DNA of 24,955 nt from a virus, in IMG/VR virus record IMGVR_UViG_3300008050_000292, positions 1-24,955 of that record; one strand, written 5' to 3'. The notes under the pieces were generated by a model. It ran no database searches. It worked only from the letters and a program-made list of their open reading frames with translations, and had not been told where the DNA came from. Both the position numbers and the translations under genes were made by a program. Below, piece by piece: positions 1,474-22,800 of this stretch (its first letter is position 1; each line of letters begins with the position of its first letter).

Positions 1474-1761
1474 ATGAGTAAAAAAATAGATAAATACATC
1501 GACGAGGTTGTTGAGAACATTCGCAAAGATCGAGAAGTTACCAATGACCTTTTAAAAGATGCCATCGGCTATTTAGCCAAAGACGAATCAAGGCACCGTG
1601 ACATCGGCCTTGTTCTATCAAAGTATGTTGAAACATTACAGCGATCAAACGAGCAGCTAGTGAAGATTACTTCTTTAATTGCAAAAGAAGAGACAAAAGT
1701 GGAAGGCTTAACAGAGAAGGACATGGAAGAAATTTATTCCGCTATAAAGGGCGAAGAATAA
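1474..1761 (+). CDS. Helical small protein, unknown function (95 aa)
   Basis: I do not recognise a named family. The protein is highly charged and predicted almost entirely helical. It has heptad-like Leu/Val/Ile spacing across residues 5-70 and a conserved-looking centre (Lys-Tyr-Val-Glu-Thr-Leu-Gln-Arg-Ser-Asn-Glu-Gln). No cysteines, membrane segment or catalytic motif are present. It lies between the late sigma factor and the spike genes. Its stop overlaps the next start (TAATG), so translation is likely coupled. The 17-base gap upstream has no good Shine-Dalgarno sequence, only a weak ACGG just before the ATG. A scaffolding or chaperone-like role in tail assembly, or a transcription accessory role, is possible but has no direct support. 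Confidence 0.6.
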   Translation: MSKKIDKYIDEVVENIRKDREVTNDLLKDAIGYLAKDESRHRDIGLVLSKYVETLQRSNEQLVKITSLIAKEETKVEGLTEKDMEEIYSAIKGEE

Positions 1762-2924
1762 TGGCTTCAATAAGCAATGCTATAACGGCTGCTATGGAGT
1801 TTCTAACAAGTCCTGTTTCTTCTTACAAGTTTCGTAAGAGTATACAAGATGAATCATTAGAAAGAACCCTGACGGATGTGATAAAACAAAGATCCATCCT
1901 TCAGGGTATAATAGTATCTGATGGGGACCAATCAACTGATAATACGATTTCGCAAGAAGCACAGCTAGATGGCAAACAAACTGGTGTTTACAGAGCAGCA
2001 AAAGTAAGGATTTTAGGAATTCATGATATGATTTTGCCTGATCCTGTTGCATTCTTTAAGCAAAAAAAAACTTATAACCAAATTGAAAGATTAATTGAGT
2101 GTCATCCAATCATTTATTCAAAAAACAAAGTTGAAGGTGGAACCTCCCTAAATAGAGGCTCCATAGTTGAAATAGAATTTGTTGATGGTATACCAAGATT
2201 TACTCCAACTGGTGGCTCTAATAGTGATTATTTTAGAATTTCTATTCCGCCGGAAGCTTCTCTCAATACCAAGCCCTCTGGACCAGCACAAGCAGCATTT
2301 GATAACCAGAGCGAAATCGTAACGATGGAAGATATAACTGTCCCTGTTGGATGGAAACTTAGTACAAAATTAACCAATCAAGGAAAGACAGCCACACCTG
2401 CTATGATTTCATTTTTAGATAGCTTCGCAAGGAACCTTCAAACATACACAGAGTTCAAAGGATATGAAGTAGTTGTAACTTCTGTGCAACGGACAATCCG
2501 CGAACAAGCAATTGTGGTAGTAAATGGTGTGGATAGTAATGCTAATTGGTGGCCCTACAAAAAACCGTATTGGAAGCCGTTTAGAGAAGCGGCTAAAAGT
2601 GATCAAACTCGCGAAAACAGAATTCAGAAGTTAGAAGAACTCATAAGGAATGCAATTACTAATGATAATAGATACATGTCCGAACACTTGAGAGCCGGTG
2701 CCATGGATTTAAGAACAAAGAACATTCTCGGTGGTGATGTTGCCACAAAACTAGCAAAGTTCAAAAAAGCAGCGGAAGACACCAAGCTAGCAAAATCAAT
2801 CCAAATTGAATATTATGAAGAAACCACTTTCCGAGATCAAAAAGCAAAAAGAGATGCCGAAGGCACACCGGCTAAAAACGAACATATGCACTTGAATTTA
2901 TTACAAAGTACAGCCGGAGAATAA
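1761..2924 (+). CDS. Baseplate hub/spike protein with M15-type zinc peptidase
   Basis: Residues 1-60 are poorly defined. Residues about 75-165 look like the OB-fold region found at the start of gp5-type hub proteins, with beta strands around KVRILGIH and RGSIVEIEF. Residues about 225-380 fit a peptidase of the M15 (VanX/VanY/T5 endolysin) group. Thr240-Ser-Val-Gln-Arg244-Thr matches the Ser-Gly-Tyr-Arg element. Ser307-x-His309-x4-Ala314-x-Asp316 matches the SxHxxGxAxD motif, with Ala312 in place of Gly. Glu374-x-x-His377 matches the ExxH motif. The inferred zinc ligands are His309, Asp316 and His377, and the catalytic base is Glu374. The 7- and 61-residue spacings equal those of VanX. The likely job is local peptide cleavage in peptidoglycan during tail penetration, which T4 performs with the gp5 lysozyme. 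It overlaps the upstream gene by one base, and the downstream gene starts two bases after the stop. Confidence 0.72.
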   Translation: MASISNAITAAMEFLTSPVSSYKFRKSIQDESLERTLTDVIKQRSILQGIIVSDGDQSTDNTISQEAQLDGKQTGVYRAAKVRILGIHDMILPDPVAFFKQKKTYNQIERLIECHPIIYSKNKVEGGTSLNRGSIVEIEFVDGIPRFTPTGGSNSDYFRISIPPEASLNTKPSGPAQAAFDNQSEIVTMEDITVPVGWKLSTKLTNQGKTATPAMISFLDSFARNLQTYTEFKGYEVVVTSVQRTIREQAIVVVNGVDSNANWWPYKKPYWKPFREAAKSDQTRENRIQKLEELIRNAITNDNRYMSEHLRAGAMDLRTKNILGGDVATKLAKFKKAAEDTKLAKSIQIEYYEETTFRDQKAKRDAEGTPAKNEHMHLNLLQSTAGE

Positions 2925-2925
2925 A

Positions 2926-3897
2926 ATGCCAAAACAAAGCCCCGTATTAAATAAATCAACTATTGAAGAAGAAGAGCTTATAGAGCTTGGCAATCTCGTT
3001 GGTGCTTTAAACACTGAAGTTCCAACAGAAAGAGAACCAACATACGAACAAGCACAAGCAGAGATAGTGTTGCCCTTGGCTAGAAAAAGAGGAATGAATT
3101 CCAGAATAATCTTAGGAAAAGATCGGCTATCCACATTCTCTTCCGGTTATGGTGGAAAAGGCACTCCTGCATCTAATGCAATCGATCTAGTGGTTGGCTT
3201 GGGTTCTTCTTATAGAGATAAAGGCTTGAGCTTGGATCAAGATACCGTTGTTGGTAAAAACCCATTTACCGACGCAGCCAGAATCTATATTTCACAAAGA
3301 ACAGACCTAGACACAGCCTTTGGCATAACCGAAGGAACCAAATTTGCTATTGATAAGCCACAGAGATCAAGTGGTGGAGGGGTATCCGGAATAGGAATAA
3401 AAGCCGACACAGTATTGGTAGTGGGCCGAAGAAATGTGAAGATAAAAGCAGGAAAGTCTGATGCTGTAAGTCTTGGAAAAGATGGAGAAACCGATGCTCA
3501 TGGAAGAAAGATAGATACTGCTGATAATAAAATAGAGCTTATCGGAGCCCAAGGCTTAGAGCTAGAACCTATGGTATTAGGAAACAAACTAGCTTCTGCT
3601 CTAGAGAAGATGAATGCTTCAATAAACAAAAACAACCTATCAATACAAAAGATGATTTTAGAAATCATGCAATTGAGATTGATGCTAATCTTACACATTC
3701 ATGGCGATCCACTAACCGGAGTAACACTTCCATCACCGGATTTGGCTATTGGTCTGATAAACAAGCTACCTAAAGATTTGCAAGACCAAGCAGAGGGTTA
3801 CATAGACGCATTAAATAAAATAATCGATGATCTAAACACATCCCAAATACCAAACAAAGATAGTTACATTCTAAGTAAGACTGTATTTACAACCTGA
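2926..3897 (+). CDS. Probable baseplate spike/hub-associated structural protein with HxH motif
   Basis: This 323-residue protein has a charged helical N-terminus (1-45). A beta-rich central region (about 60-215) shows recurring strand-turn units such as Ile-Asp-Leu-Val-Val-Gly, Ala-Arg-Ile-Tyr-Ile-Ser-Gln-Arg-Thr-Asp and Gly-Ile-Gly-Ile-Lys-Ala-Asp. A helical segment follows (about 222-255), then His257-Ile-His259-Gly-Asp-Pro and a Thr/Pro-rich turn. Histidine-x-histidine near the end of a beta-rich protein is known from membrane-piercing spike tips such as P2 gpV, where it binds iron. The analogy here is inference, because about 64 residues follow the motif. I recall similar proteins as virion structural proteins of T4-like marine phages. 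GGAGA at 2916-2920 gives a strong ribosome binding site. Its place two bases after the OB/peptidase gene suggests that both form the central spike. Confidence 0.6.
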   Translation: MPKQSPVLNKSTIEEEELIELGNLVGALNTEVPTEREPTYEQAQAEIVLPLARKRGMNSRIILGKDRLSTFSSGYGGKGTPASNAIDLVVGLGSSYRDKGLSLDQDTVVGKNPFTDAARIYISQRTDLDTAFGITEGTKFAIDKPQRSSGGGVSGIGIKADTVLVVGRRNVKIKAGKSDAVSLGKDGETDAHGRKIDTADNKIELIGAQGLELEPMVLGNKLASALEKMNASINKNNLSIQKMILEIMQLRLMLILHIHGDPLTGVTLPSPDLAIGLINKLPKDLQDQAEGYIDALNKIIDDLNTSQIPNKDSYILSKTVFTT

Positions 3898-3905
3898 GAA
3901 AAACA

Positions 3906-6900
3906 ATGGCGGAATCAAAATTTAAAAATCTTCAAAACGAAGTGTGCGAACTACCACCGGAGCCACCAAGTTCTGTAAAGGTGTGCCCAACTTGCACAAT
4001 CGATCCAGATTATGTTGAACCCACTTGGTGGGAGACAACAGATCCGTATTTAAATCTTAGTGTTTGTGAATATCAAGTAGCGATACTTTCTTCCGAAAAT
4101 CCCAGAAATTTATCACAAGCGGAAATAAACTATTTAGCACAAAAGTCCGTTAAAAAAGGGATTAGAAAAATTCTAAGACAATACTCTAAGCTTGAATTAG
4201 ATTCGGTTGTTTGTGCTTTCCCTCCTAAGAGATCCTCACAGGTTTGCAGATTGTACCTACCACCAGAACTGATAATTCAGTTGGATGAAATTGAAAGCCT
4301 ATCTGGCCAAATGAAATCAGATGTTGACTACAATAAGCAAGACCCTGAGAATCGTTTTAATCTAGAAGCATTAGAGATCAAAGCGTTCGTTAAAGACATC
4401 TACTATGGTGATAGTTTCGAAAGATTTCAAATTCTAGTCTCAATCCCAGCAGAGGCAATTGATGTGTTGGTCAATGCCCCGTTCGGTGACGAGGAACAGG
4501 ATGAGATAGAAGTAAACACTCAAACTGATAAAGTCGTGGTATTGGACGGACGAGCATTCAAGAATAACATCCTTCAGATGAAAGCGATTTTTAAACTTTA
4601 TTCCAGATACCAGTCTCTATATTACATGCTTCAGCGACTTTCTTTATTACAGGATGTCGGCGACACTACTAAGAAATTTAGACTTACAAAGTTTCCAAAT
4701 TTATTTGAAAAGTTCAAAGATTCTCTAGAGGAGCTATTAGAAGACAATAATTACAAATTGCGTCGTCGCAAAGGAGTAAGAACCGCTCATAAGATAAAGA
4801 TTGTTTTTGACAAAAGAGACCCCACAAGGCCGTATCTTATCAAATCAATTCAGGCTAAGTATAAGGGGTGTCCATATAAGAAACTTAGAGGTCTAGGTTC
4901 CTTTCGCGAAAAAGAAGAGGTCAAGAATCAAACCCTCATGCACTACATTTCAAATTTAAATGATATGTTGAGCGAAATCGAAAATTCATCTGAACCTGTG
5001 CCGTGGCTGGATTTTGTAGCGGACCATACTTACCCACCTTTGACAATAGACTTTGGCTCTGTTGACTCTACCAACGAAGAGCTTGATTCCTGCATTAGCG
5101 ACACGTATTTATCAGAAATCAGAGATGGTTTGCTGGAAGAGGCTCTAAGCTTTAGAGAAATGATAGAATTCACTTTCAGTACACGCAATTGTCAAACCAT
5201 TGAAGAATACAGAAACAACAACTTGGTAACTAAAACCAAAGAAAAAATAAAAAAGGAAAAGCTAACAAAAGAACAGCGAACCACCAGAAGAAAAAATCGT
5301 AGAATAGACAAAGAAGCTGTTAAGCAAGAGAAACAAAGAATACAGTCATTTATTACTGCCCGCGAGGAGCAAATTTTAAACTTTGATTTCTCTAATCCAG
5401 AGGCATTAATCCAAGGATACGTTGATCTCGAAGCAGTTGATGATGATTTGGAAATTGTAAAAATCCTAAAAACAGAGGTAAAAGCCCTTAAGTCTATTAT
5501 AAGTAATGCCAATAGGGCCCTGTCGGGACTTCTACTAAGTGTTGATGAGAGAACTTCTGAGGTTGATCTTTATGAACAAGCCACGCTTAGATTTGTAGAG
5601 GAACAACAACAGATTCTTAATTTAAAACAAGAAGAACTGAAAGAGTTAAAAAGAACACAAAGGCACACAAAATTCCCAGTTACAGAAGCATTGTCTTCCG
5701 AAAATTTAAAAAGACTATGGGCCGAAGCCAAAGGCCCAGAAACAGAGGAGCCCTCATTAGCAAAGAAGCTTGCCGCTCGTGCTAGCACAGAAGGTAAGGC
5801 ACAAAGAATATCAAAAAATGCCGGCAGAAGTTTAATTTCAAAAATAAACCCATGCAGTTGGGAAGGGGTTCTATTTGATGTAATAGAATGCTTGCTCGGT
5901 GGCATGTCACTAGCAGAGGCTATACCGATAATTGTAAAATCTACACTAAGTAAGACTTCGCCATTTGTATTGCAGAAGGTTCTACAAGGACTACCACCAG
6001 AAACTCAACTTGAAGTCGAAGAGAAAGTAAAAGAAGAATTAGCAAACATTTCTGCTGATGCCGCTGCTGCATTTAAGACTCCTTGGGATGCGGCAAGCGA
6101 ACAAGCAGCAAAAGAAGAACTATTCGATAATACAGCAGATAGAGATAAGCAATTGAACGATCTTAGTGAAACTGTCGAGATAGTTTTTGATGCATATGTA
6201 GAAGCAATTATAGAGCTGGCAGGTATTGACCGATTGGTTGAGATGCTTGATAAGATTCCCGGTGCGAATGTATTCAAAAAAGTGTTTCTACAAGCTGCAT
6301 GTCCGTCTGTCAACAATCTGACAGTTGGAATAGACGATCTATTTGGCTCTCTTAAGATTGGCTTTTGTGAAGATGGAGCCAATGGCTATATCCTACCAGA
6401 AATACCCAATTTACCTTCTTTGAGAATGATTGGTGTTAAAGGTGTGATAAACATCTTATTACAGGAATTCAGAGAAAAAATTGTTGAGCTAATAGATAAG
6501 CTGATTTTAATTCTTTTTGTTAAAGTTTTGGAACTATTAGACAATTCGCTATGCAGATCAATAGGAGCATTGGGCTCTTTGTTGGCAAACCAAATCTCAG
6601 GTCAAGATACGACTAGAAATGGCCTGTTAGATGCAATAAATGATGCGTTTTGTAACTTTGATGGAAATGCTAATGATACACAGGATGATTTACTAAGCCG
6701 AGCAGGTATGCCAGATTCTGCTAAATCATCAATTGCAAATAGTATCTCTAGAGCAATGTCTCCAAATGAGATTAAACAAGCACTTTTAGATTGTTCCTCA
6801 GTGCCATCTCGTGTATGGAAAGCAATTTATGCAATCATACAGGTAACTTATCCAGATCTCTTAGAAATTATAAACGGCCCTGATGATGTAAAAGAGATCT

Positions 6901-9900
6901 TTTGTATAATGGGTTCATTATTATCTCCAGAACAAAGAGGCCGTTTAGAAGATAGTTTTGACACTGAATCTCCTCTTGCAAATAGACCAATGGATAATAG
7001 TATTTGTCTTACAAATTCAGAAAGAGTGGTATGGGATCAAAGAAGAATAGAGTTTTATCAAAATGACGGCTTGGATTCTGATGCCGCTGAAGATTTTGTA
7101 AATGGCCTTAATGATAAAATGTTATCAGATTTAGCAGACCTAATGGACTTGCTTGCAAATGGCCCTGAAGGGGTCTTGGAAGATCTTTTTGGAAAAGCAT
7201 TTGAACCAAGCCCTGATCCGGAGTGTATTGAGAGTTTAAACATCCTACCTCCTCCACCAGAAGAAATAAAGCAACTCCAAGCACAGATTTCTGAAGGTAT
7301 CTTTGGCACTCTTTCAAGTGCCTTCACAAGAGATATGATAGGTCACAGGCATGCATTTATTGATAACATTTTGGCAGATTCTCGTGGAAAAAGACTAACC
7401 GGTTTTCTCCAGCATGAATCAAGAGTTGGATTTGATTTATTGTTCCCTAATGCAGCAAATTCGATTGAAGATCATAGGGACAAATACGATCAATCCGGAT
7501 ACATAACGAAAGCCATCATGGCCCAAAAGCTTTTTCCGGAAGACACATTTGAGGGCAACCAAGAAACAGAAGATGGAATAACAACACCGGAAGCAAATCA
7601 TCTTTTTCCAGATACCATTTCAATCTATGCCAGAAAACAGCTTATGGACTCCACACAGGAAATAGAATTCACAACAGGTCCGGATAGTCCATCTTTTATT
7701 TTAAATTTCAAAGACATTAGCGAAAAACCCGAAGATTATGAGTTTGATAAAGGTTTTAACTTAGTTTATAAAAACAATACGAATTCAGATGATAGCTTTA
7801 AAAGAGACGGATTATACGTTATAAGAAAAACAGACCTGAACAGAATAAAAGATAACAACATTCAAAGAACTCGCGATTTTAGATTAAGAATACCTTATGG
7901 GCTTGAAAATAATAGTAAGCTCGTACAACAAATAGATTCGGGAGAGAACACATTAAATCAACCGTATGTCAATTTCCTATTCTCAGAGTATATCAAGAGA
8001 ACTTGGTCTCGTGCTGGTGTCAACAACTTACAAAATACAGATACCCTTTATGACAAAATGAATACAGGAATTGCCGGACCCCTTATACACTCTCTTTTAG
8101 AAGATTCCAGAGAACCAGATGGGATTCCTACTGGTTTTAGATTTGGCTACAATAACGATAAAATAACATATGAAGATTTGTTATATGTGAATCCCGAAGC
8201 CACCGACGATACAGATACTTGGGAATATACATATGAAGAAGAGGACAAGACCTTGGGCAAGTCCGCAACAGGAAACAAAAGAGTTAAATTCTTAGATCCG
8301 GCAAAGTACGGAGGCAGATACACAAAACCAAAACTGTATCTTGAACCAACCGAACATGATGGATGGTATAGAGTATTGCAAATAGTAGTCCCAGAACTTG
8401 ATGGATGTGATCCAAGAAGATCGGACTTTCTTTATCTAACAGAAATCTCAGATAAGGTTTCTAGTTTGCAAAACACTCTGCCAACGGATAAAAGAATGGA
8501 ATTAGATGAATCCTGTACTCAAGAACCAGCATTTGATAAACTTTTATCACCAAGTAGCACTGCCTACATGGAAGGTGTTATTACTGCAACCATAAGAGCC
8601 TATTGCTCTGAGGCCATTTTAAGAACGATGCCGATGGTTTCACAATTAAAGCTAGACTTTAAAAGAAATTATGATGATGCTTTTTTATCTTTGATAGTAG
8701 AGAAGATGGAAGAAGAAATGACAGAGCAGGGCGGCATTGGCGACGGGTTTACATTTTCAAGAATCAAAGAGTATACATATTGGCTTCTATTTTTAGAGCA
8801 GGTTGTGCAATCATCTTATAGAAAAGTCAAAGAAGGAACTTTGCCGAGAGAACCTTTGTTGCTAAGTATGCTGCGTGACACCAATAGAATCTCCAAGAAC
8901 TATCTCAGACCAGAGTTAGAAGACATAAGATTGATAAGAGCAATAGGATCTTATTCATTAGATTTTGAAGGGAACATAGTCGCGGTACAATTCAAGCGCA
9001 ACCAGTCCTCTCAAAAGGCACAGAATAGGGGAATTCGTCTGCTAAATGCCCTTGCTTTTGGTGCATACGGAAAAGACTATAGGGATACACTACTTAAGAA
9101 AAAGAAAGACGAAAGAAGAGTAAGGATCAAGGTTCTTAGCCTAAAAAGACTAAAAACGATCACAAGGGAATTTGACCTACACAACAGCATGATGCTTAGT
9201 AAGTCAATTTTAAGATTTCACATAAGAGCAGAACTAGAAGGTTATTCTGATAAGCTAGATGAATTCTTCGTCCCGCAGCCTTATATCTTTGATCTTAGCA
9301 AATTTTTTATTGGTGCTAGCAACATTTGTAAAAATCACACAATACAAGCTGGCCTTTCGGAAGTCGAAAGACCGGTAGGGGAATCCTCTCTTCCGTATGG
9401 TGACATAAATGAAGTAGTACAAGATCCTTCTGTACAAAATCCTTTAGAGGATTTAGAAATTACAGATGAGATCAAAAACAATGGAGTTTTCTTTTTAGAA
9501 AAGTATGCAGTGGTGACACCCAAAGGAACCAGAAGCAGTAGTTTCACAACACTTCTAAATGGAGTGGTTTCAATAACAGAGCTACAAAGTGAAATAAGAA
9601 ACTTTCGTGGAGATAAAGAAATATTAATTTCCGAAGCGCTTGGAGATGCAATAGAAGTATTAGATGAGAATGGAAATGTATTAACTTATGACGGCAGCAT
9701 TGGTATTAAGTTTGGAGTCAGGTTATGTTATGCACCTCCGAGCAATTTTGCTGTTCCAAATGCAATTGAATTTGACAGAGCATTTAAAGCCAAGCCTGTG
9801 GAAGGTTACGCCGGCTCTGCTCATTATTTTCCAATTGCAAAGTTTGAACAAGATATAATAGACAGAAAGCTTAACGAAATAGACCTACAAGATACGAATC

Positions 9901-10364
9901 TTGGTGAAGACCTAAAATGTTATGTTGACAAGCTTGTTTCTACAAGCGAATTTGACCTTGTTATTAACAATCTTCTGATAACCAGAAGGATTTCCGGATT
10001 AATGTCAATTTATATGTATGATGCCTTTATAGATTCACTAGGCTTAGATTCATCAGAAAGAGAAGAAGGCTCGGAGAATAGAGGAAACCAAAAATGGAAA
10101 GGAAACATTCTGGATGATACAAAAGACCAGTGTAGAGCGCTTTTCGCCTCTTTTTATCGCTCAATGGACTCTGACGACGACAGTCTTGATGAGACAAAAG
10201 AGAAAAATAGGAAAAAGCTATTCTCTAATTTACTTCCCAATGGCTTATTTAATATAGATAGATCTGTAAAGTGGTGGCAACTCCGTAGAAGATTAGAAGA
10301 TCGACCATTTAATAAAGATGGCGAAGATTGTGTAAATGACTTAGCAGAGATTTTTGGAGGATAA
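3906..10364 (+). CDS. Giant 2152-aa protein of unknown family, probable baseplate/tail structural protein
   Basis: I cannot assign a family. The N-terminus holds Cys14, a Pro-rich stretch and Cys27-Pro-Thr-Cys30. Residues about 440-492 are extremely Lys/Arg/Glu-rich and likely a coiled coil, with a second coiled coil near 554-589. Residues about 645-900 alternate Ala-rich helices with hydrophobic cysteine-containing stretches. A strongly hydrophobic helix lies near 850-883 (Ile-Leu-Ile-Leu-Phe-Val) but is flanked by charges, so it is more likely buried than transmembrane. Pro-rich turns occur near 1115-1120 (Pro-Pro-Pro-Pro-Glu-Glu). The last 900 residues are mixed alpha/beta, and the C-terminus is charged. 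About 27 cysteines are spread along the chain. It lies between the spike pair and the gp25 wedge gene and is within 10 bases of both, which points to a hub or baseplate role. It could substitute for several small T4 hub proteins. No enzymatic motif is visible. Confidence 0.75.
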   Translation: MAESKFKNLQNEVCELPPEPPSSVKVCPTCTIDPDYVEPTWWETTDPYLNLSVCEYQVAILSSENPRNLSQAEINYLAQKSVKKGIRKILRQYSKLELDSVVCAFPPKRSSQVCRLYLPPELIIQLDEIESLSGQMKSDVDYNKQDPENRFNLEALEIKAFVKDIYYGDSFERFQILVSIPAEAIDVLVNAPFGDEEQDEIEVNTQTDKVVVLDGRAFKNNILQMKAIFKLYSRYQSLYYMLQRLSLLQDVGDTTKKFRLTKFPNLFEKFKDSLEELLEDNNYKLRRRKGVRTAHKIKIVFDKRDPTRPYLIKSIQAKYKGCPYKKLRGLGSFREKEEVKNQTLMHYISNLNDMLSEIENSSEPVPWLDFVADHTYPPLTIDFGSVDSTNEELDSCISDTYLSEIRDGLLEEALSFREMIEFTFSTRNCQTIEEYRNNNLVTKTKEKIKKEKLTKEQRTTRRKNRRIDKEAVKQEKQRIQSFITAREEQILNFDFSNPEALIQGYVDLEAVDDDLEIVKILKTEVKALKSIISNANRALSGLLLSVDERTSEVDLYEQATLRFVEEQQQILNLKQEELKELKRTQRHTKFPVTEALSSENLKRLWAEAKGPETEEPSLAKKLAARASTEGKAQRISKNAGRSLISKINPCSWEGVLFDVIECLLGGMSLAEAIPIIVKSTLSKTSPFVLQKVLQGLPPETQLEVEEKVKEELANISADAAAAFKTPWDAASEQAAKEELFDNTADRDKQLNDLSETVEIVFDAYVEAIIELAGIDRLVEMLDKIPGANVFKKVFLQAACPSVNNLTVGIDDLFGSLKIGFCEDGANGYILPEIPNLPSLRMIGVKGVINILLQEFREKIVELIDKLILILFVKVLELLDNSLCRSIGALGSLLANQISGQDTTRNGLLDAINDAFCNFDGNANDTQDDLLSRAGMPDSAKSSIANSISRAMSPNEIKQALLDCSSVPSRVWKAIYAIIQVTYPDLLEIINGPDDVKEIFCIMGSLLSPEQRGRLEDSFDTESPLANRPMDNSICLTNSERVVWDQRRIEFYQNDGLDSDAAEDFVNGLNDKMLSDLADLMDLLANGPEGVLEDLFGKAFEPSPDPECIESLNILPPPPEEIKQLQAQISEGIFGTLSSAFTRDMIGHRHAFIDNILADSRGKRLTGFLQHESRVGFDLLFPNAANSIEDHRDKYDQSGYITKAIMAQKLFPEDTFEGNQETEDGITTPEANHLFPDTISIYARKQLMDSTQEIEFTTGPDSPSFILNFKDISEKPEDYEFDKGFNLVYKNNTNSDDSFKRDGLYVIRKTDLNRIKDNNIQRTRDFRLRIPYGLENNSKLVQQIDSGENTLNQPYVNFLFSEYIKRTWSRAGVNNLQNTDTLYDKMNTGIAGPLIHSLLEDSREPDGIPTGFRFGYNNDKITYEDLLYVNPEATDDTDTWEYTYEEEDKTLGKSATGNKRVKFLDPAKYGGRYTKPKLYLEPTEHDGWYRVLQIVVPELDGCDPRRSDFLYLTEISDKVSSLQNTLPTDKRMELDESCTQEPAFDKLLSPSSTAYMEGVITATIRAYCSEAILRTMPMVSQLKLDFKRNYDDAFLSLIVEKMEEEMTEQGGIGDGFTFSRIKEYTYWLLFLEQVVQSSYRKVKEGTLPREPLLLSMLRDTNRISKNYLRPELEDIRLIRAIGSYSLDFEGNIVAVQFKRNQSSQKAQNRGIRLLNALAFGAYGKDYRDTLLKKKKDERRVRIKVLSLKRLKTITREFDLHNSMMLSKSILRFHIRAELEGYSDKLDEFFVPQPYIFDLSKFFIGASNICKNHTIQAGLSEVERPVGESSLPYGDINEVVQDPSVQNPLEDLEITDEIKNNGVFFLEKYAVVTPKGTRSSSFTTLLNGVVSITELQSEIRNFRGDKEILISEALGDAIEVLDENGNVLTYDGSIGIKFGVRLCYAPPSNFAVPNAIEFDRAFKAKPVEGYAGSAHYFPIAKFEQDIIDRKLNEIDLQDTNLGEDLKCYVDKLVSTSEFDLVINNLLITRRISGLMSIYMYDAFIDSLGLDSSEREEGSENRGNQKWKGNILDDTKDQCRALFASFYRSMDSDDDSLDETKEKNRKKLFSNLLPNGLFNIDRSVKWWQLRRRLEDRPFNKDGEDCVNDLAEIFGG

Positions 10365-10366
10365 GT

Positions 10367-10750
10367 ATGGCTATAAAGAATATAACAGTTGAGTTTCCAC
10401 TCAAAGTAGGACCAGAGGGCTATTTGGTATCTATAACAGAGGAAAATGTTGCTGAATCAATAAAATTTAATCTTAAAAACATTTTGTTAACGATTCCGGG
10501 AGAAAAGCTCTCCGACTCTAATTTTGGTGTTGGCTTATTGAGATACTTATTTTTAAATAACAACGAGGATTTAAAGCCTCTCAAATTCGTCATCAGAGAA
10601 CAGATAAAGAGATATTTCAATGTTTTTAGCAATTTGGACATTGAAACCGACATAAGCCGAATGAATGAGCAAGTTTTAAAAGTAAAGCTTGTTTATGTGA
10701 TAGATGAAATTAAACTATCGGACGAGTTGGAAGTTGAAGTTTCTCTGTGA
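10367..10750 (+). CDS. gp25: Baseplate wedge protein, T4 gp25-like
   Basis: This is a 127-residue protein (T4 gp25 is 132) of the gp25/TssE-like family, a sheath-initiating wedge component shared by contractile phage tails and type VI secretion systems. The family core is visible: a Phe-Pro-Leu start, then Ala-Glu-Ser-Ile-x-x-Asn-Leu-x-x-Ile-Leu-Leu-Thr-x-Pro-Gly-Glu-Lys at about 29-46. After this come a Phe-Gly-x-x-Leu-x-x-Tyr-Leu-Phe turn (about 52-62) and a C-terminal beta region. In T4, gp25 binds the gp6-gp7 heterotrimer and nucleates sheath polymerisation. GGAGG at 10356-10360, six bases before the ATG, is the clearest canonical ribosome binding site in the window and lies inside the end of the preceding gene. 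The gp6-like gene follows after a 46-base gap. Confidence 0.85.
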   Translation: MAIKNITVEFPLKVGPEGYLVSITEENVAESIKFNLKNILLTIPGEKLSDSNFGVGLLRYLFLNNNEDLKPLKFVIREQIKRYFNVFSNLDIETDISRMNEQVLKVKLVYVIDEIKLSDELEVEVSL

Positions 10751-10796: not shown

Positions 10797-12596
10797 ATGC
10801 CCAAAAACAAAAACATACCTATAAAATATACAAATAGAGATTTTGATACAATCAAGCAAGACTTGATAGATTATGCAAAAAGATACTACCCAAATACTTA
10901 CAAAGATTTCAGTGATGCCTCATTTGGTTCAATGGTTTTTGACATGGTTGCATACGTCGGAGATAACTTATCTTTTTATTTAGATTACCAAGCGAATGAA
11001 TCATTTCTAGATACATCTGTTGAATTTTCTAACATACGAAAGCATGCTCGGTCTATGGGCTATTCATTTGCTGGTGTACCTGTGTCTTATGGCTTGGCAT
11101 CATTTTTTATCTTGATACCTGCTAATGCAGATGGAAATGCACCAGATCCTCTTTACATACCAACTTTAAAGAAAAATACATCTCTTCGATCAGCTTCTGG
11201 TGTATCCTTTTTGCTATTGGAAGATGTTGATTTTTCAGATCCCAAAAATGAAGTTGTAGAAGCACAATACAATAGTACAACTGGTGGCGTTACTTATTAT
11301 GCTATTCGTGCCTACGGCCAAGTCTCATCAGGTAAACTGCAGTCAGTTGATATTAATCTGGTTAATGCTTCGTTTGAAAAATTTAGAAAAGTAAGAATAG
11401 GCGCCTCCGCTATTTCAGAAGTAGTAAAAGTCGTCGACTCAGAAGGAAATGTCTATTACGAAGTAGACTATTTGAGCCAAGAAACAATCATGATAGAAAC
11501 AACAAACCCAACTGCTTTGTCTGATGGCGTAAGATCTATTATGAAACCATTTGTAACAGCAAGAAGATTTATTATTGAGCAAGATAATACCGGAACTTAT
11601 TTACAATTTGGCTTCGGATCGGAGGATGACGATGATTCTGGACTAGCAGACCCCTCAGCGGTTGCGTTGAATCTCCATGCTAGGGATGCGATAACTGCCA
11701 CGTCTATTGATCCTTCAAAACTATTAGGGACTGACAAATTTGGAATCTCTCCTTATGGAACCACTCTGAAGGTAATTTATCGGGTTAATGACTCAACAAA
11801 TGTTAATGTTGGTGCAAACCAGCTTGATAGAGTTATTTCGCCTGTTGTAAAATTCAATGACCCAACAAGTTTGAATTCTGCCACAGTGGCATACATAAGG
11901 GGTTCTCTCGAAGTTACAAATGAAGATCCAATAAGTGGACAAACAGTCGAGATCTTATCAGATGAGCTTAAAGTTAGAGCAAAGAACTATTATGCCACAC
12001 AGAACAGAGCAGTTACAAAACAGGACTATGAATCGATTGCATATAACATGCCAAATAAGTTCGGGTCAATAAAAAGAGTTAATGTGGTAAACGATCCTCT
12101 GTCAACAAATAGAAAACTAGCCCTGTATGTTATTTCAGAAAATCAAAATGCAGAATTGATAACTACAAGTGCAAGAATAAAAGAAAATTTAAAATCTTGG
12201 CTAACACAGTACAAGTCTATAAACGATCAGATGGAAATCTTTGATGCAAAAATAGTAAATTTTGGAATAGATTTCGAAGTATCGGTTGATAATAGATATA
12301 GTCGTGATGAAGTGATCACTAATGCCATAAATAATTTAGCGAACAGGTATTCTCCAAAGTTTTATATAGGAGAAGCCATCTACTTAACAGAGATCTATAA
12401 CATTCTGGTAAAGACAACTGGAATTATTGATGTTAAGAAGGTTGAGGTCTTCAATAAGTATGGGGGAAATCATTCCTCGATTCCGTTTGACTTTGACAAA
12501 GTTAGTTCAAAAGACGGCTCATACTATAAAATTCCAAAAAACGTGATCGTTGAATTAAAATTTCCAAATGAAGACATAAAGGGTGCCGCCAAATGA
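10797..12596 (+). CDS. gp6: Baseplate wedge protein, T4 gp6-like (gpJ family)
   Basis: This 599-residue protein (T4 gp6 is 660) has the signature order of the gp6/gpJ wedge family. The N-terminal Tyr-Thr-Asn-Arg-Asp-Phe-Asp-Thr-Ile (about 10-19) is followed by Ser-Phe-Gly-Ser-Met-Val and Val-Ala-Tyr-Val-Gly-Asp-Asn-Leu-Ser-Phe-Tyr (about 41-63). A central beta-rich region follows, with Gln-Phe-Gly-Phe-Gly-Ser at about 271. Near 403-412 is Arg-Ala-Val-Thr-Lys-Gln-Asp-Tyr-Glu, the conserved entry to the C-terminal domain. The C-terminus then has the typical Leu-x-x-Trp-Leu helix and alternating strands. In T4, gp6 dimers form the inner ring of the baseplate and change conformation on sheath contraction. 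GAAGGA at 10782-10787 supports the start. The stop overlaps the next ATG (ATGA), so the DNRLRE protein is translationally coupled. Confidence 0.87.
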   Translation: MPKNKNIPIKYTNRDFDTIKQDLIDYAKRYYPNTYKDFSDASFGSMVFDMVAYVGDNLSFYLDYQANESFLDTSVEFSNIRKHARSMGYSFAGVPVSYGLASFFILIPANADGNAPDPLYIPTLKKNTSLRSASGVSFLLLEDVDFSDPKNEVVEAQYNSTTGGVTYYAIRAYGQVSSGKLQSVDINLVNASFEKFRKVRIGASAISEVVKVVDSEGNVYYEVDYLSQETIMIETTNPTALSDGVRSIMKPFVTARRFIIEQDNTGTYLQFGFGSEDDDDSGLADPSAVALNLHARDAITATSIDPSKLLGTDKFGISPYGTTLKVIYRVNDSTNVNVGANQLDRVISPVVKFNDPTSLNSATVAYIRGSLEVTNEDPISGQTVEILSDELKVRAKNYYATQNRAVTKQDYESIAYNMPNKFGSIKRVNVVNDPLSTNRKLALYVISENQNAELITTSARIKENLKSWLTQYKSINDQMEIFDAKIVNFGIDFEVSVDNRYSRDEVITNAINNLANRYSPKFYIGEAIYLTEIYNILVKTTGIIDVKKVEVFNKYGGNHSSIPFDFDKVSSKDGSYYKIPKNVIVELKFPNEDIKGAAK

Positions 12597-19846: not shown

Positions 19847-22800
19847 ATGCCAATTAATTTGGATTTAGTGGGACTGAATACACTTGTCAATGAGCCAATC
19901 ACTTCATCAACGAATACGATAGGTTACCAACCGCACGAACATATCGTTCGCCGCGCATTAGCAAATAAGTATGTAGACGATGGAGGTTCTGCCTCAGATT
20001 ACTACATAGCCAGTAAAGAAACTGGTTTTAGCGGATATACAACGACTGGTCCATTGTCAATTACATTTTGGGCAAAAATAGATTTAGACGAATCAGTGCG
20101 AAGCGAGCACAATTCACATGTATTATTGGCAACTGATGGGGCCAATAATTCATTAGCAATTGTCTTCCACCACACAGCACAAGACAGTGGCAATTATACT
20201 GGTGGTAAGATTATTTTTAGTGTTCTAGAAGGCTCAAATGTAAATCAATTTTATTGGACCTCACTTAGCACTTCTTGGAGTATACTGGGTTCACTAAACC
20301 ACTTTGCTTTAGTTTGGGATGGGGACAAAGATTCAAATCCTGTTCTCTATATTAACGGTGAACAAACTGTTGATTCACAATTTCTATTTTCGGTATCTAA
20401 TAGAAATATGACTACAAGCACGAGAAACAACATCGATCTATTGCGAGTTGGCGGGTCGGCCCAAGATGAAAATAATTTGCATGGCTCCATGTCTGAATTG
20501 GTTTTATGGAAGAAGCAACTTTCTTCTGCCGAAGCTAGATCGTTCTATAGAGAGCGAAGATTTGTTGACTACTCAATTTATTCATCCGATATTATAGACT
20601 ATTGGAAGTTAGGCGAAGATCTAGCGAGTACTTTTAAAATCGGAGACTCTGTTGCATTGAGTACCACAATTAGTTCCGCGATATCAAACAATGATCTAAC
20701 AACATCTGCCAACACAACAGTGGCCAAAGGTCTTGTCTTTGATTCTATTGTTAATTTGAATGTTGGAATTATAAATGCAGATGATTATCTGGTAGCACTC
20801 AACATACATCGAAATGGGTTGTATGGCTATCCCATATTCAAGCAGATAAGAGCAGGGCAAAATCCTCTTACAAGGTATCATAACAACAACTCTATCTTTT
20901 CGTATGTTTCGGAAGTTGGAGAGATCAAACAGAAATTTAATGGTTCTCAATTGATTCAAACCTATAGAGAAAAACGAGGAAGCTTATATCAAATAACCGA
21001 ATCTGTTGTCATTTCTTCAAATAAGCCAATCATGCTCGTAGGATCCGTACAAAGAGGTGATGATGATAATGGAGAATTGGACAGAGTAGAGATTCTAACA
21101 TCTTTCAATAATGAAAACCAATACTTTGCAAATGAACAGGCCAACAGACATCATGGCATCATTTACGATGTAGTAGAAGGATACGATGAGCTAAGCGACA
21201 TTTATTTAGATGGTGGATTAGACGGAGACAATTCTCCTTTAGATCAATTTGAATTGTTGAAATATTCACAAACAATTTATCCAAAAGCCGGAAACAGTTA
21301 TCTGAACGAAGTAAGGGGTCGCCCTAACTTTGAATCTGGCTATTGGAGAGATCTCCGAACCAATAGAAATGAAACAGGGGCAATAGATAACGGCTTTGGC
21401 TTTACAATTCCATCACAATCTGTGTGGGTATTAGACACAGAAGATAATTGGGCTGCAAGAACCCTATCTGCCTCTGTTGGTTCATTTACAGCATCAATTG
21501 GATGCGATTTTGATTTTAACACATCCTCGGGTTCTGCCGGTGGTTTCGAGTTCGGAGCAGCAGAGATCTCTTTCTTTGCTTATGATGCCGATGGTAATGA
21601 TCCCGGTGTTATTTCGGATTACACCACAGCACAAGTTGGTGACATCGTCGGTTATAGAATAACTGCCGAGAAGTATTCATTGAACTCGGTTGATGGTACC
21701 GCAAGATTCTGGAATGCATGGTCTAATGCAATGGATGCTGGTAACTTTAGAGTTGATCCATATACTGCGAATTACATCACAAGATCTGCATACACATCGA
21801 CTGGCAATGATGATTCTGATCCGTTTTACCTACAAGTCAATTCATCTACATTTAATGAAGCAACTTGGAAATCAGAATTTGATAATCTTTATCTTCACTT
21901 TTGGGCAAAGGACATTTCTTCAACAACAGAAGGGTATCTTTATCGTGAAGTGGACTCAACACAAATCAACAGAAGATCAGTGTATTTCAGTGGCTCTACA
22001 ATAGAGGTATTACATTCCACCGTATTTAATAATCAATTTGAAGATGGAGCAACATCTATTCACACCGGCTCAACGAAAGCACTTGGTGCCGTAGCCATAT
22101 CACATGATTTAGATGCAGAGTCCACCTCTAGGGGTCAAGAGTGGAATAACCACATAATAAAGTTATCTAGTAACTCTGGATCTATAAGTCAAACAAGTGA
22201 TATAAACTTTAAATTGAATGGCAATTTGAGATTTAGTCCGAACTGGAGTGCGACTTCTATAAGCGACACACTAAACTTTTACACTGCCAACAAGACCGCA
22301 ACAACTTTATTTACAAGTACAACAGCACAAGGCAAAAACACCAATGATAGTTTCACCAACGGATCGGGACCGTACAATCTTTCTATGGGATCAGCAGATA
22401 GGCTTATAACATTTTTTCTCAAAGTAATCGGAACCACAACCCAAACTATTTTCAAGTTCTATACCAACTCTAACAATTTCATATTTGGTCAAATTAGTGG
22501 AACAACCTTGACAATCTCTATTTTTAGCACTTCTAGCGGATCGCTCAAAACTAGAGTCTATACATATGATGTTTCCGATCATATAGGAACTCTCACCAAA
22601 TACATAATTTTTGATGAGACCGCTGCAGGACAGTATGTCCCATTGAAGCTTTATGCCTACACCACCAGCGGACTGGTTGAAATAGCAGGCAGCGAAGCTT
22701 ACTCAGACCCTCTTCCTAGAGCCGCTCTTGCTACCACTTTTCAACAATACAGCTTGTATTCAATTGATTCCGATTCGTACGGAGGAGGGCAAATCCTAGC

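Follow-up and report, generated by a model that had tools for sequence, protein, structure and literature searches.

Here, we describe a giant protein of 2,152 residues, encoded directly upstream of two baseplate wedge genes of an uncultured virus, and propose that it is probably a lineage-specific scaffold of the contractile-tail baseplate, stapled by cysteines and directed with a loop of its middle part toward the cell wall. Judged from sequence comparison, it is not an orphan, but a member of a large undescribed family in uncultured marine phages. Its assignment as a lineage-specific baseplate component is supported by our analysis, and its interpretation as a fusion of hub proteins is not.

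Gene, locus, and family of the giant protein

The window, i.e., the whole stretch of 24,955 bases analyzed here, is a fragment of a larger virus sequence, and it is contained with 22 mismatches over its full length in the near-identical 96.4-kb contig G001. The reading frame of the giant gene is open and complete from its ATG start, whereas many stops interrupt the opposite strand (Table 1). As originally predicted, it is the largest closed reading frame in the window; the last gene, starting at position 19847, is longer (2,225 amino acids) but runs off the window edge and is whole only in G001. Neighbors with a family match in the window are a late sigma-like protein (phrog_234) and the wedge proteins gp25 (PF04965) and gp6 (phrog_10646). 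Near the end of G001 begins a tail-sheath-like gene, labeled by eye from its N-terminus and from its equivalent in the 154.9-kb sister contig G002, which precedes the tube gene. The product of the gene preceding the giant gene had been called a spike. It is a conserved partner gene, but this label found no counterpart in PHROGs, Pfam, or among solved structures. The neighboring protein encoded at 1761 to 2924 showed no homology to solved structures either.

Table 1. Coordinates of features of the giant gene and its neighbors in the window
Feature	Position	Strand	Evidence or remark
Upstream neighbor, 323 aa, conserved partner gene	2926..3897	+	Synteny; no family match
Giant protein gene	3906..10364	+	2152 aa, 19 near-invariant cysteines
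Four-cysteine stretch C14, C27-P-x-C30, C54, candidate metal site	3945..4067	+	Every one retained in ≥51 of the 51-53 sequences that cover it
N-terminal alpha/beta domain, residues ~31-385	3996..5060	+	AlphaFold2 pLDDT mostly 83-96; common to distant giants
Charged helical pair, residues 432-585	5199..5660	+	AlphaFold2 low confidence; occupancy 0.09-0.28 over 481-600
Helical core, residues ~640-1150	5823..7355	+	C650, C662, C799, C821, C883, C916, C1034, C1107 invariant
Insertion hot spot after residue 730	6093..6098	+	Other members: coiled coils or peptidoglycan-binding domain
C-terminal alpha/beta region, residues ~1115-2152	7248..10361	+	AlphaFold2 model, conservation
gp25-like baseplate wedge protein	10367..10750	+	PF04965 E 2.8e-10, phrog_261
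gp6-like baseplate wedge protein	10797..12596	+	phrog_10646 E 6.5e-21, phrog_219, phrog_6

The expectation that the giant protein would fall into no recognizable family was confirmed in all collections searched. Up to E = 1, neither PHROGs nor Pfam contained a match to it, NCBIfam contained none, tblastn against 50,697 phage records returned nothing for it or for a second family member, and a profile search of PDB sequences with the giant family gave nothing at E ≤ 0.001. A scan of viral contigs with the single protein recovered only the same virus. With gp6 as a bait, 36 loci were obtained, and an alignment-based profile scan of uncultured viral contigs detected 306 stretches of related sequence, 80 of which were fetched. 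At gp6-bait loci with gp6 43 to 68% identical, the gene preceding gp25 was a giant wherever it was visible whole, ranging from 1,863 to at least 3,181 amino acids. Some of these positional giants lacked blastp similarity to the window protein. Profile comparison ties several of them to it via residues ~760 to 1150 (E 1e-12 to 5e-9, three groups), and the profile of 79 members recovered L017, L008, L013, and L012 (E 4e-28 to 2e-13), with the N-terminal domain included in the matches of L017, L013, and L012. The loci L014/L016 and L023/L025 remain positional counterparts, their homology to the giant being unproven. Full-length members comprise 1,988 to 2,909 amino acids, and their sequences drift to 20 to 30% identity outside 19 conserved cysteines. 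One 4.6-kb contig from the genome-contig scan is filed under a Flavobacteriales MAG, a weak hint at the host.

In 90 of 90 fetched relatives, gp25 directly follows the giant gene, and of the 61 loci that extend far enough upstream, 60 have the spike-like gene directly before it, the sole exception being L136, where the giant is split into two reading frames. This place of the giant gene within the baseplate operon, next to gp25 and gp6, is expected of a T4-type baseplate component, and the original prediction of a large baseplate-region protein without known family is supported, the gene adjoining gp25-gp6 in each relative that was fetched. Outside this group, phages with gp6 30 to 34% identical (Flavobacterium phage immuto, Microcystis phage Mel-JY01, and IMG/VR contigs) carry one or two small genes at this place, encoding ~90 to 260, mostly 110 to 190, amino acids, and often a protein of 110 to 190 amino acids that starts with an amphipathic helix. 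In profile comparisons, the small genes of immuto and Mel-JY01 had no similarity to the giant. A single branch (support 100) splits a gp6 tree into the 65 giant-bearing rows and the 12 outgroup phages, which have small genes only at this place. The giant/small trait changes once on this tree, compared to 11.4 changes expected by shuffling, with the provisos that the tree stems from a quick search and carries a long-branch warning for the outgroup rows. Because the split falls on one branch, the simplest reading is a single gain of the giant, in the common ancestor of a clade that would comprise uncultured marine T4-type phages. The conserved operon position and the essential baseplate role that had been predicted from it therefore need to be confined to this clade: the position is conserved and the role plausible within it, but the outgroup phages have the same gp25-gp6 machinery and manage without a giant.

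Domain organization and conserved cysteines

AlphaFold2 modeling of the C-terminal region with 79 sequences (residues 1100 to 2152, 1,053 residues) yielded a pLDDT of 85.2 and a pTM of 0.87 and bore out the mixed alpha/beta architecture that had been predicted for this part. The most conserved block of the protein, residues 1441 to 1640, is situated here. A Foldseek search of the PDB with this model found no match (best E 0.53). The whole model is matched by the BFVD entry A0A516M7H3 (E 3e-43, TM 0.69/0.66), and the viral structure library contained one further, weaker match. A0A516M7H3 is itself a predicted viral structure, an uncharacterized and unnamed relative of the giant, and hence not an explanation of it. 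The model of residues 1 to 1180 was poor overall (pTM 0.40), although it includes the N-terminal domain, in which residues ~110 to 150 and ~190 to 205 are the low spots. The model of the N-terminal half had no Foldseek match in the PDB, a comparison weakened by its low-confidence regions. Homology to T4 gp27, gp29, gp48, and gp54, for which the original prediction had suggested looking, was not detected at E ≤ 0.001 by the PDB profile search or by Foldseek, the latter with the same restriction for the N-terminal half.

Between the two alpha/beta regions lies a fast-evolving helical middle. Two long coiled coils had been predicted for the protein; helices at residues 432 to 491 and 516 to 585 are indeed modeled, albeit with low confidence, but most relatives lack them, occupancy among relatives at residues 481 to 560 being 0.09 to 0.13. 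A part of the helical core is detectable even in the most distant giants. The postulated cysteine-bearing hydrophobic helices exist, residues 857 to 883 and 655 to 677 being the most hydrophobic stretches. Many members carry insertions of charged, coiled-coil-like stretches after residue 730. At the same site, a minority of members, belonging to two lineages, acquired a peptidoglycan-binding domain: PG_binding_1 (PF01471) was found in L084, L095, and L094 (E 7e-12 to 4e-14, above the curated cut-off), and endolysin-type PHROG matches were found in L097 and L095. L095/L084 and L097 occupy separate places in the gp6 tree, and such a domain may therefore have entered the residue-730 loop twice.

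The 19 near-invariant cysteines (positions 14, 27, 30, 54, 322, 396, 429, 650, 662, 799, 821, 883, 916, 1034, 1107, 1501, 1537, 2005, and 2142) stand out against the drift of the remaining sequence. They include the predicted N-terminal CxxC, C27-C30, kept in 51 of 52 to 53 relatives. Across 87 sequences, 1,276 of 1,320 covered alignment cells (96.7%) are cysteine, and 74 sequences retain every conserved cysteine that they cover. No residue type is better conserved than cysteine (mean 0.75 versus 0.60 for tryptophan); at 18 of 26 cysteine positions, 90% or more of the weighted family retains it. Held-out relatives, whose nearest family member is ~28% identical, kept 15 of 16 or 15 of 15, and L087 possesses precisely the 19 cysteines and none extra. 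In the window, gp6, gp25, the spike-like protein, and a 95-amino-acid protein have zero cysteines. Cysteines of the other tested genes are mostly variable, except that C71 is conserved in the sigma-like protein and C263, though less strictly, in a 1,635-amino-acid protein. The cysteine content of the giant is 1.25%, compared to mostly 0 to 0.9% in large structural proteins of G001.

Where conserved cysteines are missing, they tend to be missing in sets, though some losses coincide with gaps and are possibly misalignments. C322 and C1537 were lost together in L005, L120/L122, and L134, and the set of C429, C799, C1501, and C2142 was lost in these loci and in L083; in L120/L122 and L134, C322, C429, C799, C1537, and C2142 are lost and position 1501 falls in a gap, and L083 kept C322 and C1537. 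L143 lost both C396 and C916; L083, in which C396 is lost and C916 kept, is an exception to this pairing. Single losses affect C429 in L103, C54 in L185/L187/L192, and C27 in L081 and L088. Disulfides or metal sites would be expected to produce such mutually dependent sets, and the concerted losses suggest that the cysteines form paired or clustered staples of one of these two kinds. Disulfides would require a later oxidation step, as the particle is assembled in the reducing cytoplasm, which is a point against them. The odd count of the conserved cysteines likewise counts against the staple reading.

Proposed role and its alternatives

The tail genes of G002 help to delimit the role of the giant. 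In this contig, the sheath gene is followed by genes for the tube (phrog_4542), the baseplate hub (phrog_150), and an 820-amino-acid tape-measure-like protein (phrog_167; a weak match, E 8e-4). After the latter come genes encoding 350 amino acids, a LysM-like protein of 113 amino acids, and 1,852 amino acids; the 350- and 1,852-amino-acid genes and a further one of 444 amino acids, all in the stretch directly behind the tape measure, are of unknown family. The LysM-like label was assigned by eye, the PDB matches being weak (LysM-domain protein, E 0.12; baseplate protein, E 0.28), and the match of a VanY-like hub protein of G002 was likewise weak, below the cut-off. In immuto, the gene at the equivalent place is annotated as a tape measure. 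These separate genes indicate that the giant is distinct from the tape measure and does not stand in for the tube, hub, tape measure, or LysM-like part, all of which are present elsewhere in G002.

A function as the tape measure, which sets the length of the tail from within the tube, would agree with the length of the giant, its helical stretches and hydrophobic helices, and the length variation among members, and one of 21 members had a tape-measure PHROG match (E 8.3e-7), which was not traced to a member in scans of eight complete members and of portions of ten others. However, the giant gene precedes gp25 and the tape-measure-like gene of G002 follows the tube, as annotated likewise in immuto; hhalign of the 79-member giant family against tail proteins of immuto, Mel-JY01, and G002, tape measures included, detected nothing significant; the tape-measure proteins in the G002/immuto comparison are devoid of cysteine; and the C-terminal half of the giant adopts a compact alpha/beta fold in the model. 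A tape-measure function is therefore extremely improbable. The original prediction had named as possibilities a new hub scaffold and a protein that fuses or replaces several hub proteins; the latter would apply to the T4-type hub and tube-initiator proteins gp27, gp48, and gp54. In line with this, the giant gene adjoins the spike-like gene, and a family search of G002 identified no one-to-one equivalents of these three proteins, but the 350-, 1,852-, and 444-amino-acid genes of G002 sit where such proteins are expected, neither half of the giant matches PDB folds, profile similarity is absent, and the outgroup phages possess the same gp25-gp6 set and no giant. A hub replacement is thus unlikely and was not borne out.

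We consider it doubtful to a similar degree that the giant is a host-binding tail fiber or adhesin on the baseplate. Rapid divergence, variable length, and the peptidoglycan-binding inserts of some members are compatible with such a function, yet adhesin, lectin, or fiber domains were absent from the scanned members, a LamG-type domain is located instead in a downstream giant gene, and the C-terminal core, the cysteines, and the gene position are conserved across lineages. The 110- to 190-amino-acid amphipathic-helix protein at the same position in outgroup phages could be an assembly factor, and by analogy the giant could help to assemble the baseplate, as a scaffold or chaperone that is not part of the virion; we rate this as quite unlikely, given that the small protein of immuto and Mel-JY01 has no detectable homology to the giant and that the peptidoglycan-binding inserts suggest contact with the cell wall.

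We favor the cysteine-stapled baseplate scaffold over these roles. In the virion, the giant would sit at the tail tip, with its folded N-terminal domain and the ~1,000-residue unmatched C-terminal region linked by the helical middle, and would form an additional scaffold packed around spike/hub and gp25-gp6 wedges. The 19 cysteines would staple the long chain, either by disulfides maturing in released virions or by metal sites, and the loop at residue ~730, to which some lineages added the peptidoglycan-binding domain, would project to the cell wall. It is tempting to go further and picture a clamp, covalent or metal-stapled, over spike and wedges, with the cysteine network acting as a redox or metal latch that is oxidized and locked in seawater and released at the host envelope, and with the ~730 loop anchoring the tail tip to peptidoglycan. 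This would amount to a new baseplate architecture in a clade without an isolate in the searched collection, but we regard this elaboration as fairly unlikely.

Relation to known contractile tails

The adjacent gp25- and gp6-like genes, with their family matches, resemble the wedge module of T4. The giant differs from the T4 baseplate in that it matches no solved structure by profile or fold, and to our knowledge, T4 has no counterpart of the giant gene. In the annotated marine T4-like phages S-BM3 and Melnitz-3, the large gene of unknown function in this region is found downstream of gp6, whereas the giant gene is upstream of gp25. VrlC of pelagimyophages and cyanomyophages is described as a baseplate protein substituting for T4 gp7 (PMC7029224). 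As proposed for the giant, it is a baseplate protein of marine T4-like phages. The closest parallel for the cysteines is Agrobacterium phage Milano, whose disulfide-locked baseplate was resolved by cryo-EM and requires a reducing agent for contraction in vitro (PMC10811340). Both systems have conserved cysteines in a structural-gene product of a contractile-tail baseplate, with a proposed stabilization of the particle. In Milano, the bonds join many separate sheath, wedge, and receptor-binding proteins (PMC10811340), where they were seen by cryo-EM, whereas here such bonds would be concentrated in one giant protein, with a putative pairing.

As far as we found, the component is undescribed, and the machine to which it would belong, the contractile tail, is already known. 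Its predicted fold is unmatched and it is absent from the phage records searched. Current descriptions of contractile tails lack this conserved giant baseplate component, which occurs in hundreds of uncultured viral contigs. The cysteine pattern provides a testable prediction on how the tail is stabilized outside the cell and how contraction is possibly gated, and it would extend the Milano-type disulfide-locked tail.

Divided reading frames

In the window virus, the region downstream of gp6 is divided into three ORFs, of 304, 1635, and 2225 aa, and contig G001, which is near-identical, shows the same division. Relatives, e.g., at locus L005 and in the sister phage contig G002, seem to have a single long ORF (2800-3250 aa or more) that includes both the 304-aa and the 1635-aa protein. 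At L136, the locus of another relative, the giant gene seems to be present as two ORFs (3-971 and 1617-3992), of 322 and 791 aa, both of which match the giant's family profile. A split gene, a frameshift, or a fault in the assembly would account for this arrangement.

Features located in the window and in related phages
Feature	Position	Remark
ORF	352-831	overlaps zinc-ribbon gene, different frame
ORF, 304 aa	14013-14927	
ORF, 1635 aa	14937-19844	
Sugar cluster	L062-L063, G002 contig, about 35847-43000	by eye
Outgroup gene at giant's position	L040:19154-19573 and equivalents	

The ORF overlapping the zinc-ribbon gene encodes a membrane-helix-like stretch at residues about 29-60, so its true start is probably internal.

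Sequence features of the giants and of the outgroup product

Some giants carry an inserted histidine-rich motif, found in the C-terminal third at L026 (GYYHVH...G..H....H..L) and at the C terminus at L008 (GHFHVH...). It reads like the YHYH-type motif, which is reported from structural proteins of marine phages. The outgroup product encoded at the giant's position is often an unannotated protein of 110-190 aa whose N terminus is amphipathic and conserved (KLxELRKxIREEVK...).

Putative sugar cluster of the sister phage

Upstream of the sister phage's tail module lies a putative sugar cluster with a sialic-acid-synthase-like and a CMP-sugar-transferase-like gene. These assignments, both made by eye, raise the possibility of phage-borne nonulosonic acid biosynthesis.
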